Positions 16,726 to 23,568 of a stretch of DNA of 35,353 bases are shown in pieces. A program made the translations under genes and the position numbers. Position 1 is the first letter of the stretch. Each line of letters starts with the position of its first letter. The notes below the pieces were generated by a model that ran no database searches, had not been told where the DNA came from, and was given only the letters and a program-made list of their open reading frames with translations. The stretch covers positions 1-35,353 of the forward strand of contig PTKE01000016.1 in the NCBI GenBank assembly GCA_002937585.1, written 5' to 3'. Origin of the DNA: Alphaproteobacteria bacterium MarineAlpha9_Bin6 (GTDB taxonomy: Bacteria > Pseudomonadota > Alphaproteobacteria > UBA7887).

Positions 16726-19434
16726 CTACTCACCGATTTGTTTTAGCTTGTAAAGAATTTCTAACGCCTCCCGCGGGCTAAGCGAATCGGGCTCGATTGC
16801 CTTAATTTGTGCAACTAAGGAGTCGATTTCTGGTAGTTCGACGGCTGAAAAAGAAGTGGAGAACAACGGCAGGTCTTCCGTTAAACGTGCGGCCTCCGAC
16901 CCGCGCTCATCACTTTCCAGGACGGCAAGCACCTCCTTAGCTCGTGCCAAGACAGAAGCCGGCAAGCCCGCCAGACGGGCGACTTGTATTCCGTACGAAC
17001 GATCGGCTGCTCCAGGCCCGACCTCATAAAGAAATACCACCTCATCTCGCCATTCACGGATACGCATGTGATGACAACTTAAGGACTCAAGTTTCGGTGC
17101 TAGCGCGGTCAGTTCATGAAAATGTGTCGCAAAAAGAGCGCGACAGCAGTTATGAGTATGCAGATATTCGACTGTCGCCCACGCTATTGACAAGCCATCA
17201 TAGGTTGCAGTGCCACGGCCGATCTCGTCGAGCACAACTAATGCCCTAGGGCCCGCTTGATTGAGAATAGCAGCAGTTTCAACCATTTCGACCATGAACG
17301 TCGAACGGCCACGTGCCAGGTTGTCGGCTGCCCCGACACGACTGAATAAGCGATCGACGATCCCTATATGGGCCGCTCGTGCGGGCACGAATGAGCCCAT
17401 CTGACCAAGCAGCGCGATTAACGCATTTTGCCGAAGGAAAGTGCTTTTACCCGCCATGTTAGGCCCAGTCAGCAACCACAGACGTTGCTCATCAGAAAGA
17501 TCGCAATCGTTTGCAATAAAAGATTGAGCCTCCGTCCGCATATCTCCAACCGCCTCAACCACTGGATGCCGGCCATCGCTTACACGAAACGTATAACTAT
17601 CATCAACAATAGGTCGGACATATCCGCGTGCTGCAGCCAATTCCGCGAGACCCGCAGCAACATCAATTTGAGCTAACGTTTCGGCGGTTAGGGCGAGTGC
17701 TTCATCCTGTCCACACACTTCATCGACCAACTTGCCGAATAGCTCGAGTTCCAGCGCCAAGGCGCGCTCACCAGCTCGCGAAATTTTATCCTCTAGATCC
17801 CCTAATTCCACCGTAGTGAAACGTACTGAACTCGCCAACGTCTGCCGGTGAATGAAGGGACCTGTCATCTTATTTGCATGAGCAGGCGTCACCTCGACAA
17901 AATAACCAAGGACATTGTTGTGCTTAAGTTTGAGGACGCCAATTCCCGTTTCTTCCCTGTATCGTTTTTCAAGATCACGAATTAGTCGCCGACTCTCGTC
18001 GCGCGCCATTATCTGCTCGTCAAGATCCGTCGCATAGCCAGATGCTATAAAACCGCCATCACGAGCAAGCAAAGGCAAATCCTTGCCGAGGGATTGTGTT
18101 AGCCGTTCTATAAGTACATCATTATCGCCGAAGCCCGCGCAAACGGAGCGCAGTTCATCGGGCAACCCGGACTTGCCACTAACGGCCAAAAGTTCCTTAA
18201 GCTCTCTAGCCCGCGTGATAGCATCTCGGATCGCGGCCAAATCCCTTGGGCCACCACGGTCAAGCGTAAGCCGGCTTAAAGCCCGTTCGATGTCCGGACA
18301 GGTACGAAGAGTCTGGCGGGTCTGTTCTCTAAAATCGCGTTCAGTTAAAAACCATTGCACCATATCCAAGCGTGCAGCGATCACCATCGGATCAGTAAGC
18401 GGTGCTGTCAAACGAGCCGCCAACAGCCGCGCACCGGCTCCCGTCAAAGTGCGGTCTATGACGCCGAGCAAACTCATTTCGCGCCCACCATCTAACGCGG
18501 CAGTTATTTCAAGATTTCTTCGTGTGGCCGCGTCAATTGCCATTACTGCAGTAGCCATCTGTTGGCGTGGTGGTAGTAACCGCGGCATACGACCCTTTTG
18601 GGTCAGTGCAACGTAATCAAGTAGACCGCCGCACGCCGCCCATTCGGCGCGCCCAAATGCTCCGAAGGCATCAAGGGAAGCCACCCGGAAGGTGCGTTTA
18701 AGGCGGCGTTCACCTGCAATGCTATCGAAACGCGTAGCCGGAAGCGGTGTCAATAAAGCTCTCCAATCCATCAACGATGTGCCAAGAAGGCTGTCCTCAA
18801 CTAACGAGTCTGGCACCAACAACTCGCCTGGGGAAATCTGAGAGAGTGTTGCCGCTAAATCACCCTGGGCCGGCACGGTCACCCAGAAAACCCCTGTAGA
18901 AATGTCTATCCACGCCAATGCAATTTCACCGCCGGCTCTAGCCACAGCCGCGAGATGATTGTTCGACCGCGCATCTAACAGCGTATCCTCAGTAAGCGTG
19001 CCAGGTGTAACCAACCGATCAACAGCTCTCTTGACCAGAGCTTTGCCACCTCTTCTACGTGCTTCTGCCGGGTCTTCGGTTTGTTCGCAAATTGCGACCC
19101 TAAAACCTTCTTTTATTAGTCTCTGGAGATAGGCCTGATGGCTGTGAACTGGAACTCCACACATGGGCACGTCCGCCCCATCATGCTTCCCGCGTTTAGT
19201 TAATGCGATATTCAATACACCAGCTGCGGCAACAGCGTCGTCAAAGAACATTTCGTAGAAGTCACCCATGCGGAAAAAAAGCAAACTGTCTGGATGCGCA
19301 TTCTTGATTTCAAAATATTGCGCCATCATGGGCGTCGATCTCGCCTCAGACTTGCTCTCATCTGGGGAACGACTCCCTGCCATTCCAGCGTTTGGTTCGT
19401 CTCTCGTCATGGTTTTAACAATAGCATAAGGCAT
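16726..19434 (-). CDS. mutS: DNA mismatch repair protein MutS
   Basis: A 902-residue MutS. The N-terminal mismatch-recognition domain has LLFFRMGDFYEMFFDDAV with the Phe-x-Glu wedge. The ATPase domain carries Walker A GPNMAGKST (near residue 655), Walker B with VVLDEIGRGTATYDG, and the conserved FATHFHEL. I chose ATG 19434 because GGAG lies 5 nt upstream; a later ATG at 19410 has no ribosome-binding site and an earlier in-frame start at 19464 is possible. It recognises mismatches and recruits MutL. It is divergent from maeB with 86 bp between the chosen starts. Confidence 0.97.
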   Translation of the reverse strand: MPYAIVKTMTRDEPNAGMAGSRSPDESKSEARSTPMMAQYFEIKNAHPDSLLFFRMGDFYEMFFDDAVAAAGVLNIALTKRGKHDGADVPMCGVPVHSHQAYLQRLIKEGFRVAICEQTEDPAEARRRGGKALVKRAVDRLVTPGTLTEDTLLDARSNNHLAAVARAGGEIALAWIDISTGVFWVTVPAQGDLAATLSQISPGELLVPDSLVEDSLLGTSLMDWRALLTPLPATRFDSIAGERRLKRTFRVASLDAFGAFGRAEWAACGGLLDYVALTQKGRMPRLLPPRQQMATAVMAIDAATRRNLEITAALDGGREMSLLGVIDRTLTGAGARLLAARLTAPLTDPMVIAARLDMVQWFLTERDFREQTRQTLRTCPDIERALSRLTLDRGGPRDLAAIRDAITRARELKELLAVSGKSGLPDELRSVCAGFGDNDVLIERLTQSLGKDLPLLARDGGFIASGYATDLDEQIMARDESRRLIRDLEKRYREETGIGVLKLKHNNVLGYFVEVTPAHANKMTGPFIHRQTLASSVRFTTVELGDLEDKISRAGERALALELELFGKLVDEVCGQDEALALTAETLAQIDVAAGLAELAAARGYVRPIVDDSYTFRVSDGRHPVVEAVGDMRTEAQSFIANDCDLSDEQRLWLLTGPNMAGKSTFLRQNALIALLGQMGSFVPARAAHIGIVDRLFSRVGAADNLARGRSTFMVEMVETAAILNQAGPRALVVLDEIGRGTATYDGLSIAWATVEYLHTHNCCRALFATHFHELTALAPKLESLSCHHMRIREWRDEVVFLYEVGPGAADRSYGIQVARLAGLPASVLARAKEVLAVLESDERGSEAARLTEDLPLFSTSFSAVELPEIDSLVAQIKAIEPDSLSPREALEILYKLKQIGE

Positions 19435-19520
19435 TGTTCTCCGGACCGCTTTACGGTTGCCCAAAGCAGCTCTACAGTCATCAAGATAAGGCGCTGCACC
19501 TCTACCTTCGAGGCAAAACT

Positions 19521-21848
19521 ATGCCATCATCCAACACGACATCAAAGGCAATGCGCGACGAAGCGCTTGCTTTTCACGCCAATGGAAAACCAGGAAAGTT
19601 GGAGGTGCGCGCAACCAAACCTCTAACCACAGCGCGAGAGCTATCGCTCGCATATTCTCCTGGTGTGGCAGAACCGTGTCTGGAAATCGAAAAAAGTCCC
19701 GAACGGGCCTACGACTACACCTCCAAGGGTAATATGGTAGCTGTAATTTCCAACGGCACTTCCGTGCTTGGACTTGGCAACCTCGGAGCCCTAGCCTCTA
19801 AACCGGTAATGGAGGGCAAGGCCGTATTATTCAAACGTTTCGCCGACATAGACAGTATCGATCTGGAAATCGACACTGAGGATGTTGACGAGTTTGTCAA
19901 TTGCGTCCGCTTTTTGGGGAAAACTTGGGGCGGTATTAACCTAGAGGATATTCGCGCACCGGAATGTTTCATCATTGAACAGCGTCTCCGGGAGGCAATG
20001 GACATTCCAGTATTCCATGATGACCAACACGGCACAGCAATCATCGCAGCGGCTGGATTTATCAACGCTCTACATCTGACGACCCGAAACATCAAAGACA
20101 CGCAGGTAGTGATTAATGGTGCGGGTGCAGCTGGCATAGCCTGTGCTGAATTGCTTAAGGGCATGGGCGTGCCGTCAGACAAAGTGATCCTTTGCGACAC
20201 TCACGGCGTGATCTACACGGGTCGCGAAATCGGCATGAACCAGTGGAAATCGGCGCACGCAAACAACACCAAATCCCGTACTTTGCCCGAGGCCGTTGCT
20301 GGAGCAGACGTTTTTTTTGGACTATCAAAAAAGGGGGCTATGACACCCGACATGGTCAGGGGTATGGCGTCACAACCAATTATTTTTGCGATGGCTAACC
20401 CTGATCCTGAGATTTCTCCCGAAGACGTAGCCGCAATTCGTGGCGATGCAATCATGGCTACTGGTCGCTCTGACTATCCAAACCAAGTCAACAACGTCCT
20501 CGGCTTTCCATACATCTTCCGGGGCGCCTTGGACGTTCGTGCATCAACAATTAACGACGCTATGAAGATCGCTGCAGCCGAGGCAATCGCCACCCTCGCG
20601 CGGGAAGATGTGCCTGACGAAGTAGCTGCCGCCTACTCCTCAGACCGACTCCGATACGGCCCCGAGTATATCATTCCCGCACCTTTCGACCCTCGCCTGA
20701 TAACCTCTGTTCCAATTGCAGTGGCGAAAGCGGCCATTGCCAGCGGCGTAGCCCAGAAGCCGTTCGACGATGAACCCACCTACCGCCGCCAACTGGGTGT
20801 TCGGCTTGATCCAACCGCTAGCAGCGTCCAATTGATTCAGGACGACGTGCGCGCTCATCCCGTACGTATGGTATTCGCCGAAGGTGAGGAGGAACGGGTA
20901 ATTCGTGCAGCGGTGCAATGGCGTGTTCTCGGGTTGGGGACCGCTATTCTCATTGGCCGCGAGCGTCAAATTCTCGAGACCATGTCCAGAATGGGACTAA
21001 GCGGGCCAGAGGACCTAGAAATCCATAATGCGGGTCTAAGCAAACAAAACAAAGTCTACACAGATTTTCTCTACCAACGACAACAGCGTAACGGCTTTCT
21101 TTATCGGGACTGCCAACGACTGGTTAACCAAGACCGCAATATCTTTGCGGCTTGCATGGTTGCAATGGACCACGCCGATGCAATGGTTACCGGTTTGACC
21201 CGCAGCTATTACGTTGCTTTGAAGGAAATCCAACGGGTGCTGGATCCACGTCCTAACGAACGTATGTTTGGTCTTTCAATGGTCATCGCCGGAAACCGCA
21301 CCGTATTTATCGCTGATACCACCGTGCATGAACTGCCAACCCCCGAGGAACTTGCCGACATTGCCTGTCAAACGGCCGCCAAAGCCCGCTCGATGGGCCA
21401 CGAACCGAGGGTCGCACTGCTGTCGAATTCGAATTTTGGCAATCCGCGTTGGGAACAAGCAGACCGCATTCGGGATGCTATCCATGAGCTTGATTCACGC
21501 CAGGTCGATTTTGAGTATGACGGCGAAATTGCGGCCGATGTTGCGTTGGACCCAGAACTACTGAAACTCTATCCGTTCTGCCGGTTATCGGCACCAGCAA
21601 ACGTACTCATTATGCCTGCACTTCATAGTGCAAACATATCGGCAAAGTTACTCAAAGAAATCGGTCGGAGCACGGTGATAGGGCCTCTTCTAATGGGTTT
21701 GAGCAAGCCGGCCCAGATCGTGCCTATGGGTTCCACCGTCTCGGCAATTATAAATCAGGCCGCATTCGCAGCCCACGAAGCGATCCGTCATCGGGCAGCG
21801 CCAAGACTTCGGGGCTCAGAGAAAGGTTCCCGCCGCAGGAGCGCATGA
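19521..21848 (+). CDS. maeB: NADP-dependent malic enzyme with C-terminal phosphotransacetylase-like domain
   Basis: A 775-residue fusion. The malic enzyme half (about 1-430) has LAYSPGVAEPC, catalytic and metal-site region FHDDQHGTAI, and Rossmann loop VINGAGAAGIACAELL. The second half (about 440-760) is phosphate acetyltransferase-like, starting near VRMVFAEGEEERVIRAAVQW and including NVLIMPALHSANISAKLL. In MaeB proteins this domain is usually regulatory, responding to acetyl-CoA, rather than catalytic. The enzyme makes pyruvate, CO2 and NADPH from malate. The start ATG 19521 has GAGG 8 nt upstream; the frame is open further up, toward mutS, but without conservation. A hairpin follows the stop. 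Confidence 0.96.
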   Translation: MPSSNTTSKAMRDEALAFHANGKPGKLEVRATKPLTTARELSLAYSPGVAEPCLEIEKSPERAYDYTSKGNMVAVISNGTSVLGLGNLGALASKPVMEGKAVLFKRFADIDSIDLEIDTEDVDEFVNCVRFLGKTWGGINLEDIRAPECFIIEQRLREAMDIPVFHDDQHGTAIIAAAGFINALHLTTRNIKDTQVVINGAGAAGIACAELLKGMGVPSDKVILCDTHGVIYTGREIGMNQWKSAHANNTKSRTLPEAVAGADVFFGLSKKGAMTPDMVRGMASQPIIFAMANPDPEISPEDVAAIRGDAIMATGRSDYPNQVNNVLGFPYIFRGALDVRASTINDAMKIAAAEAIATLAREDVPDEVAAAYSSDRLRYGPEYIIPAPFDPRLITSVPIAVAKAAIASGVAQKPFDDEPTYRRQLGVRLDPTASSVQLIQDDVRAHPVRMVFAEGEEERVIRAAVQWRVLGLGTAILIGRERQILETMSRMGLSGPEDLEIHNAGLSKQNKVYTDFLYQRQQRNGFLYRDCQRLVNQDRNIFAACMVAMDHADAMVTGLTRSYYVALKEIQRVLDPRPNERMFGLSMVIAGNRTVFIADTTVHELPTPEELADIACQTAAKARSMGHEPRVALLSNSNFGNPRWEQADRIRDAIHELDSRQVDFEYDGEIAADVALDPELLKLYPFCRLSAPANVLIMPALHSANISAKLLKEIGRSTVIGPLLMGLSKPAQIVPMGSTVSAIINQAAFAAHEAIRHRAAPRLRGSEKGSRRRSA

Positions 21849-21887: not shown

Positions 21888-21995
21888 CTAACGTCTTTGA
21901 TGTCAGGGCACTAAGCCCATTGAAATCCCCTTAAATGGAATGAAAAAATGATCACAACAATTACTGACTTTTTCGCGCTATGGAGGCAATAGGCT

Positions 21996-22433
21996 ATGTC
22001 GAAAACTGCCACCCAGAGGGGCCTCACAGCAATTGCCGCCATTGTCTTTTTATTTTTAGCGATACCTGCCTCCGCCGAAACCGATCTGGAAAACCGAATC
22101 CAAATGCTCGAACAAGAGCTGAAACTGATCAGGGAGCAGCTACAGAGCGGGGTAAAATCGGCCCAGGAATCGACGACTGCACCGAAAAAAAAAGGATTTA
22201 GCACACTGCCTGGTTGGTCAGCAGGTTATAGATACAACTTTGATGCAGATGATAACTCAGCAACTAGATTAAGATTATTTCTAAAAAGAAAATCACTAGC
22301 CGGGAGTATAGTCAAATTGGCATGGGAAAGACAAACAGGTACTATTCCTAACTTTTTCAAAACTGGCACGATTGATGGGAACTCCCTTAATAAGTTTGGC
22401 ACTTTCTATATAGAACAAGAGTATAAATTCTAA
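21996..22433 (+). CDS. small secreted protein: signal peptide, coiled coil and C-terminal beta segment; possible mini outer-membrane protein
   Basis: A 145-residue protein I do not recognise. It has a clear signal peptide (hydrophobic AIAAIVFLFLAIPASA, cleavage after ASA at about residue 27), then a heptad-like stretch (LENRIQMLEQELKLIREQL, about 31-49), a Ser/Thr/Lys linker, and about 75 residues with alternating beta-strand patterns ending in YIEQEYKF. A terminal Phe after alternating aromatic residues is typical of outer-membrane barrels. GGAGG lies about 10 nt upstream of ATG 21996. Base composition changes inside the gene: the 5' part resembles its neighbours, while the 3' part from about 22200 is AT-rich. 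It may be a real small outer-membrane protein, or the start of a longer porin joined to foreign sequence. Confidence 0.6.
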   Translation: MSKTATQRGLTAIAAIVFLFLAIPASAETDLENRIQMLEQELKLIREQLQSGVKSAQESTTAPKKKGFSTLPGWSAGYRYNFDADDNSATRLRLFLKRKSLAGSIVKLAWERQTGTIPNFFKTGTIDGNSLNKFGTFYIEQEYKF

Positions 22434-22806
22434 TCGATAGTGTACTATGGGACGCAATATATTTTAATAAAGATTACCTATTAGTCCCATAATCAGAATA
22501 TGGATTAGGACTCTTTTCCCTCTCAAAAACACTCTTCTCTAGGTTCTCTTTAAGTTTTTTGAGTTTAAGATTCTGAATCGTATTCTCACGTTTAGTTTTT
22601 ATAGGTTTAATAGGCGAATCGTTTTTGAACATCAGGTGCCGTTGGCATAAGCGCCAACACATCTATATTCCGATATTATATCTGACCAGACGGCGTTAGA
22701 ATCGCCGCTTCTCTCGCATCCTCCTTGAGGCGGAAGAAGATCCCAACGCAGGTGTTGAGGACTAAAAAATACGCTTCGTTCTGGGGCTTCTCGAAGACAA
22801 AGTCAT
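22434..22806. other. AT-rich intergenic patch
   Basis: About 370 bp with no certain gene. The left two-thirds (to about 22680) is clearly AT-rich compared with the rest of the window. It includes an 8-bp inverted repeat, TATGGGAC (22446-22453) and GTCCCATA (22484-22491), and a minus-strand open frame from ATG 22632 to 22474 encoding a Lys-rich 52-residue peptide (ends SPNPYSDYGTNR) without a visible ribosome-binding site. I cannot identify that peptide. The right third returns to normal composition and leads into the methyltransferase gene. Confidence 0.55.
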
Positions 22807-23568
22807 ATGGTCGGATCTCCTCGTGACACGTCAGATCAACCCACACCAACTGCTTGCCAGATATGTGGTAAGAAAACCCCCGCAGCGTTTGCTTCAAAAA
22901 ATGGCTATCAATTATATCAATGCCGAGGCTGTCGCTTCGTTTATCTAGACCCAATGCCCAGCGCTGGCGAATTTTCTGCGCTGTATGACGATGCCTACCA
23001 AGGAGCGACTGCAGGCTACTTTGCTAAAACGGATAAGAAACTGCGCCGTTCACGTCGCCAGCTCGCTCGTATCCGTCGCAAGGTATCAGGAGGCCGGTTT
23101 CTTGATATCGGATGCAATGGTGGCTTTACAGTAGAAGCCGCCCGTGAATACGGTTTTGAGGCTTTTGGGATTGAACTTGATCCAGTGTCGCTCGCGTACG
23201 CCCAAAGCCATTTCCCCACCAATCACTACTTTCATGGCCGAATAGAGGACTACCCAAGCAAGAATCCCTTCGATGTGGTCTATTGCTCTGAAGTTATAGA
23301 ACACGTTGCCGATGCCAATGGATTTCTTTCTGCAACCGCCCGCCTGATGAGACCAGGCGCTTTGCTCTACTTAACTACCCCTGACATCAGCCATTGGCGG
23401 AGACCTCAGGATATTAACGAATGGGATGCCTTTTGCCCGCCCGCACACTGCCTGTATTTCAATCCACTAAATTTAACTACAATACTCGCTCGTCATGGCC
23501 TACGAGTTATCCGGCGACGCTGGGCATGGAAACCCGGCATCAAACTTTACGCATGCCGAACGGCTTGA
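22807..23568 (+). CDS. class I SAM-dependent methyltransferase with N-terminal zinc-ribbon-like Cys motif
   Basis: A 253-residue protein. Near the N-terminus, CQIC (17-20) and CRGC (39-42) form a CxxC...CxxC zinc-ribbon-like pair. The methyltransferase core starts with motif I FLDIGCNGGFTVEAA (near residue 98), followed by the acidic strand GFEAFGIELDP and the post-motif YCSEVIEHVADANGFL, typical of the Methyltransf_23 type. Such proteins often lie in polysaccharide or secondary-metabolite clusters, but the substrate here is unknown. The start ATG 22807 has no clear ribosome-binding site. The 3' end overlaps convergent ampG by 22 bp. It follows the AT-rich patch and may be an acquired gene. 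Confidence 0.85.
   Translation: MVGSPRDTSDQPTPTACQICGKKTPAAFASKNGYQLYQCRGCRFVYLDPMPSAGEFSALYDDAYQGATAGYFAKTDKKLRRSRRQLARIRRKVSGGRFLDIGCNGGFTVEAAREYGFEAFGIELDPVSLAYAQSHFPTNHYFHGRIEDYPSKNPFDVVYCSEVIEHVADANGFLSATARLMRPGALLYLTTPDISHWRRPQDINEWDAFCPPAHCLYFNPLNLTTILARHGLRVIRRRWAWKPGIKLYACRTA

Follow-up and report, generated by a model that had tools for sequence, protein, structure and literature searches.

TolC is a trimer of four-strand chains. Three chains with four strands each also make up the barrel of trimeric autotransporters, according to the available portion of PMC12963341, which further describes that the AtaA barrel conducts ions (0.17 nS) when stripped of its coil and that chloride is trapped at luminal Arg of the coil-less form in simulations. 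Some phages encode secreted proteins that carry a four-strand anchor, such as the agglutinating adhesin of phiEco32 and the YadA-like proteins of Aeromonas phage D6. The phosphate-selective porins of family Porin_O_P (PF07396) have a full barrel of 370 positions.

The window, which is the whole 35,353-nucleotide stretch of alphaproteobacterial DNA that was analyzed, contains a gene for a much shorter protein (Table 1) that resembles several of these systems in part. Its family shares with trimeric-autotransporter anchors (YadA_anchor, PF03895; AtaA, Hia) a predicted C-terminal four-strand meander and an aromatic last residue, and the window protein also has a coil ahead of the strands, but the family lacks profile homology and a passenger, most of its members have no lumen-filling coil, and the phage precursors are only 90-137 residues long. 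AtaApore likewise combines four-strand chains without a luminal coil with basic luminal residues, but it is an engineered open AtaA barrel and not a natural one (PMC12963341, available portion). The phage YadA-like proteins differ in being longer, in having a passenger (collagen-like in phiEco32) and in possessing anchors that match YadA anchors. With Porin_O_P, the window protein shares a homologous signal peptide and coil and a phosphate-transport neighborhood, but its core is unrelated. No sequence relation between AtaApore and the mini-protein family is known.

The mini gene and its conservation

The mini gene is preceded by an ORF of the malic enzyme/phosphotransacetylase type (19434-21848, named by eye) and followed in the window by a methyltransferase gene (22807-23568). 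The earlier note described a 145-residue protein that has a signal peptide, a heptad-like segment, about four amphipathic strands and a terminal Phe, and this description of the ORF holds; the heptad-like stretch, recognized by eye, consists of L31, I35, L38, L42, I45 and L49 with a spacing of 4-3-4-3-4. GC content within the gene is 0.517 over residues 1-60 versus 0.367 over residues 67-145 (GC3 0.291), and both GC and GC3 of the core are below those of all 639 segments of 79 codons from 16 other ORFs of the window. The drop in composition is weaker in the sister species, where the GC content of the core is 0.40-0.43.

Table 1. Positions of the mini gene, its predicted parts and adjoining sites in the window.
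Feature	Position	Strand	Basis or remark
Predicted mini outer-membrane protein gene	21996..22433	+	ATG start, 145 aa, stop included
GGAGG, likely ribosome-binding site	21982..21986	+	Sequence
Signal peptide, residues 1-27 (ASA|E)	21996..22076	+	By eye; model helix 5-22; Porin_O_P N-terminus profile match from residue 12
Short coiled coil, residues 29-56, porin-derived	22080..22163	+	Model helix 29-56; hhalign to Porin_O_P alignment
Phage-shared core of four predicted strands, residues 67-145	22194..22430	+	Profile searches, composition
Strand 1, residues 73-81	22212..22238	+	AlphaFold2 model
Strand 2, residues 90-99	22263..22292	+	AlphaFold2 model; invariant F95, K97, K99 on putative lumen face
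Strand 3, residues 105-115	22308..22340	+	AlphaFold2 model
Strand 4, residues 135-142	22398..22421	+	AlphaFold2 model; E140, E142 invariant; chain ends in KF
Site without the PiT/chromate-transporter/GPP34 block of the sister species	22434..22813	.	Alignment to G003; PiT absent from the G000 assembly

A search among 60 relatives found full-length copies with 69-71% identity in the three other species of the genus, so that the gene is present in all four species with its 145-residue length and stop kept, the conservation for which the earlier note had suggested looking. The core was found in four of four genomes of the genus and none of the five other genomes of an order-level sample. By the Nei-Gojobori method, omega in six pairs is 0.11-0.17 for residues 61-145, which indicates purifying selection, and 0.24-0.64 for residues 1-60. 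The last residue is Phe in all 44 aligned sequences and in 78 of 78 viral copies that are complete at the 3' end; homologues end at the same Phe and do not run on past the stop at 22433 as full-length porins, the outcome that the earlier note had named as refuting. There can be hardly any doubt that the mini-protein family is real.

A porin-type N-terminus joined to an unrelated core

Residues 12-57 of the genus alignment matched a 12-row Porin_O_P alignment with an hhalign probability of 96.5% (E 1e-9), and the N-terminal part also matched the N-termini of reading frames of 483-548 residues in four genomes (G004-G007). Of these frames, the two that were examined (L008, L009) belong to Porin_O_P, and in G006 and G007 a PF07396 search hit the same places; a full Porin_O_P is encoded elsewhere in the genome of the window (C115). 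Comparison of the core with the porin alignment gave an hhalign probability of 0.6%, as expected of unrelated sequences, and no Pfam match to the PF07396 barrel domain was obtained in the window protein. The coil, which is porin-derived in the genus of the window, is absent from a distant host relative (G126) and usually absent from viral relatives. Judged from these comparisons of sequence, the mini gene is a chimera of a Porin_O_P-type signal peptide and coil with a core that is shared with phages. The suggestion that the coil is a YadA-type luminal coil thus fails on its homology to the Porin_O_P N-terminus and its absence from most of the family.

The earlier note offered a truncated porin as the alternative to a stand-alone four-strand domain of outer-membrane type. 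The resemblance of the N-terminal half to Porin_O_P N-termini is what a truncated porin or pseudogene would show, but a stop and length kept in four of four species, purifying selection on the core (omega as above), a core unrelated to Porin_O_P and the independent presence of the same core in phages lead to rejection of this explanation, which is extremely improbable, in favor of the stand-alone domain.

A core family carried mainly by phages

Profile searches for homologues, another of the checks proposed earlier, found the same core in phages and in G126. Scans of IMG/VR with the core profile gave 50 and 82 relatives (80 of the 82 were kept) on a total of 81 distinct contigs, many with near-identical copies, so that there are 46 distinct complete cores. 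The core always lies at the C-terminus; the 76 complete viral copies that begin with Met are 90-137 residues long (median 109), and a median of 38 residues, signal included, lies ahead of the core (78 copies). The contigs checked are true phages by their hallmark genes, which on representative contigs include terminase, portal, capsid, DNA polymerase, and T7-like RNA polymerase with a gp2.5-like SSB. Grouping of the 81 contigs by neighbor genes, with group names assigned partly by eye, gave six contexts: portal/capsid/GroES (A, 23 contigs), TerS/glycosyltransferase (B, 34), the DNA-polymerase side (C, 12), the PhoH/exonuclease side (D, 9), T7-like (E, 2) and other (F, 1); groups C and D are probably T4-like. 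The core is thus mainly a phage-borne family, a distribution beyond the view of the earlier note.

In many viral copies, a long basic n-region is joined to a hydrophobic stretch, and the two could together be an uncleaved inner-membrane anchor. A lipobox is plausible in seven of the 78 copies (L039-L041, L100-L103); the same pattern also hit five implausible ones. Asp after the lipobox Cys causes retention in the inner membrane of E. coli, and this residue occupies that position in two of the lipobox copies. The possible anchor and the Asp both count against an outer-membrane pore.

No confident match to the core family was found in Pfam, PHROGs or NCBIfam (the last searched with the window protein only), or to the family among 50,697 INPHARED phage records, and the family is therefore probably unannotated in ocean viral sequence. 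DUF5065 of Pfam matched two of the 44 members (best E 6.5e-5), probably through similarity of the signal region. Neither YadA_anchor nor CsgF of phage curli systems (PMC9599517, available portion), a candidate that was dropped on this ground, was among the best 25 of the 40 Pfam families matched by the 44 members at E<=1. Weak matches of the window protein to coil families of Pfam, Striatin and Spc24 among them, and to the Pizza proteins of the PDB appear driven by composition; a match in G274 (E 0.008) with three internal stops was dropped as chance, as were further matches at E 0.04-0.09. The literature searched contained no published description of the family, which does not prove that none exists; the available portion of PMC6163359 does not mention a porin.

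Host copies and the PiT transporter

Beyond the genus, the only host found among 385 and 384 genomes of the class and 398 genomes of the phylum, samples that overlap, was G126, a distant alphaproteobacterium of a different family, in which the protein has 88 residues and consists of signal peptide and core only. In a tree of the core (77 columns, 44 rows), the genus of the window nests among phages L038-L041 (support 100/100), and G126 nests among phages of groups C, D and E (clade support 99/93, nearest group 88/91). A single host clade was rejected (p-AU 0.0008), and at least two separate captures of the core by hosts are most likely; since the root of the tree is its midpoint, the direction from phage to host is a presumption.

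A PiT transporter lies 3' of the mini gene in four of the five hosts. It is a PHO4/PiT gene 105 bp downstream in G001, G002 and G003 (Pfam match of the G001 copy), in the same cluster as chromate transporter and GPP34/CYTH-like genes, and in G126 the beginning of a PiT gene lies approximately 300 bp 3' of the mini gene, past a short ORF, where the contig then ends (by eye). In the assembly of the window (G000), a search for PiT gave no match, and positions 22510-22813 of the window align (66.6%) to the stretch ahead of the methyltransferase gene in G003. As G000 keeps the mini gene without PiT, PiT is not an obligate partner, and the case for a strict partnership is weakened. Conversely, G005 has PiT, chromate-transporter and GPP34 genes (the last two by eye) without the mini protein.

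Predicted fold of the core

The AlphaFold2 monomer of the full protein, from the 44-row alignment, consists of the two helices and four strands of Table 1, unlike the strandless monomer that the earlier note had named as refuting. Its mean pLDDT is 70.3, with 77-90 in ten-residue blocks that are mainly strand and 66-68 in loop blocks; a model of the core only again has four strands (mean pLDDT 73.8, pTM 0.57). By column counts, one face of the sheet carries W74, A76, Y78, Y80, L92, L94, W110, I139/F139, F143 and F145, and the opposite face R79, K91, R93, F95, K97, K99, K107, D/E111, E140, E142 and K144. This alternation exceeds chance: when residues were shuffled within strands, the observed sum was reached in only three of 20,000 trials for the family and in 45 of 20,000 for the window protein by itself, with strand ends that were chosen after inspection of the model and the columns. 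The charge of the polar face, putatively that of the lumen, averages +4.3 per chain (range 2-6 in 44 sequences), and the invariant E140 and E142 may partly neutralize it.

Among 255 chains compared by VIA-align, the anchor of AtaA (9vnj) ranks 4 with Z 5.2 and an rmsd of 1.9 over 56 residues, and the Hia anchors (3emo and 2gr8) rank 5 and 8 with Z 5.0 and 4.9 and an rmsd of 2.0 over 57 residues; they are among the best and tightest solved matches. Five chains reach Z>=5, but unrelated proteins score alike, the best at 5.6, and Z<8 can reflect a common arrangement, so the match to AtaA and Hia is only suggestive. Foldseek searches had no hit at E<=0.001, either with the full model in the PDB or BFVD or with the core model in BFVD; phage YadA-anchor/agglutinating-adhesin proteins recur with the full model at E 0.09-0.6 only and appear once (rank 30) among the best 50 listed matches of the core model in BFVD. 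Comparison with YadA-anchor alignments of 5 and 9 rows gave hhalign probabilities of 0.3% and 0.4%. Of the YadA-type architecture proposed in the earlier note, the four C-terminal strands per chain are thus retained as a prediction, together with AtaA and Hia among the closest folds (Z ~5). The profile comparisons give no sign of YadA-anchor homology, and the origin of the coil speaks against a YadA-type luminal coil: in place of a coil that enters the barrel and a surface passenger, there is a porin-derived coil in the window's genus only. It is highly probable that the core is a four-strand outer-membrane domain.

Possible functions of the mini protein

The best explanation, held tentatively and at a little under even odds, is that the mini gene encodes a secreted oligomeric subunit of an outer-membrane pore, spread by phages and captured by hosts. 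The C-terminal core (~64-79 residues) would fold as a four-strand beta meander, and because a barrel cannot be closed by only four strands of 8-11 residues, an oligomer is expected. A trimer, which is somewhat favored, would form one 12-strand (3x4) barrel. That this barrel is a pore is a serious possibility; it would be narrow, with a net positive lumen (R79, K/R91, R93, K97, K99, K107 and K144 versus D/E111, E140 and E142) if the polar face points inward. An open 3x4 barrel appears workable because coil-less AtaA conducts ions and retains chloride (PMC12963341, available portion). Marine phages would spread the family and express the core in infected cells, most likely to pass anions or other small nutrients across the outer membrane, and hosts would have captured it at least twice, upstream of the PiT phosphate transporter; a role for phosphate or another anion is conceivable, though doubtful. 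In the genus of the window, fusion of the core to the Porin_O_P signal peptide and coil may aid assembly. The most specific version, a natural minimal porin in which chains of ~65-80 residues form a trimer with an open, anion-favoring 12-strand pore lacking a plug, encoded by an auxiliary gene that marine phages of several lineages carry to feed nutrients such as phosphate to the infected cell, captured twice beside PiT and once fused to a porin coil, is rather improbable in full.

A late phage protein that inserts into the outer membrane to disrupt the envelope, replacing or helping spanins, with the host copies as tamed relics, is an unlikely alternative to which the surroundings of the gene lend some weight: 46 of the 81 contigs have a lysis-type gene (holin, lysozyme/SLT or M15 peptidase) no more than three genes away, a GTA-type holin lies immediately upstream in 10, and some copies have a lipobox. 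However, in groups C, D and E the genes around it serve replication (DNA polymerase, exonuclease, RNA polymerase/SSB), the group D lysozyme that was checked scores best as a baseplate tail lysozyme, and chromosomal host copies under selection are ill-suited to a lytic protein. Cor, Llp and the Lc porin are phage-encoded outer-membrane proteins that act in superinfection exclusion or receptor masking, and a similar display of the mini protein to block the receptors of competing phages, with capture by bacteria for defense, is about as unlikely as a lytic function. It would suit a small, phage-borne, host-captured protein of outer-membrane type with acidic loops between strands 1-2 and 3-4, but the position of both host captures 5' of PiT argues against it, and the Porin_O_P gene that adjoins the mini gene in some phages is better suited to transport, though a decoy porin would also fit.

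Still less probable is a true but extremely reduced anchor of the trimeric-autotransporter type, with the task of displaying its N-terminus or of holding a partner. Anchor folds are among the closest solved structures, phages do encode YadA-anchor proteins, and the window protein has a coil before its strands; against this, a sequence-profile match and a passenger are absent and the coil is missing in most of the family. The nutrient setting that would favor the pore is itself limited, as a nutrient-transport gene lies directly beside the mini gene in only eight of the 81 phage contigs, from few lineages.

If the pore reading is true, the protein would rank with the smallest pore subunits in nature, its gene would be an auxiliary gene through which phages act on the outer membrane and not on metabolism, and parts of the outer membrane would be traded between phages and hosts. 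Current database descriptions may thus lack a very small, virus-spread pore subunit. So small a barrel would be a directly testable case for barrel assembly, for the origin of porins by oligomerization and for the ways in which marine phages cope with nutrient limitation.

Genes adjoining the mini gene

In five phage contigs, a Porin_O_P-type gene immediately precedes the mini gene (L088:3343-4515 (+), likewise L089, L092, L104 and L133); the five porins are members of one cluster, of which one was checked (E 2.8e-36), and none of the 50,697 records of isolate phages matches the L088 copy. An ammonium transporter (AmtB) is immediately upstream in three putative phage contigs with identical mini proteins (L068:1968-3188 (+), PF00909, E 4e-101; L069; L070). 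Directly 3' of the mini gene, 44 of the 81 contigs encode a protein of 113 residues that matches nothing in Pfam or PHROGs (L083:3016-3357 (+)).

In G126, the short ORF between the mini gene and PiT is PiT-like and contains an in-frame TGA (L030:1798-2045, by eye), which could reflect gene decay, a sequence error or a recoded stop. In G007 (L162, G007:C55), from which the mini protein is absent, PiT is flanked by two Porin_O_P genes. A fragment of 90 residues in G003 that resembles a PhoB receiver domain (by eye; L024:7489-7761 (-)), between the malic enzyme gene and the mini gene, is another pointer to phosphate. The GPP34 protein (Golgi phosphoprotein 3 type) encoded beside the chromate transporter and PiT (L022:9482-10699 (-), L024:3724-5082 (+)) has an extra C-terminal region that is VTC/CYTH-like by eye.
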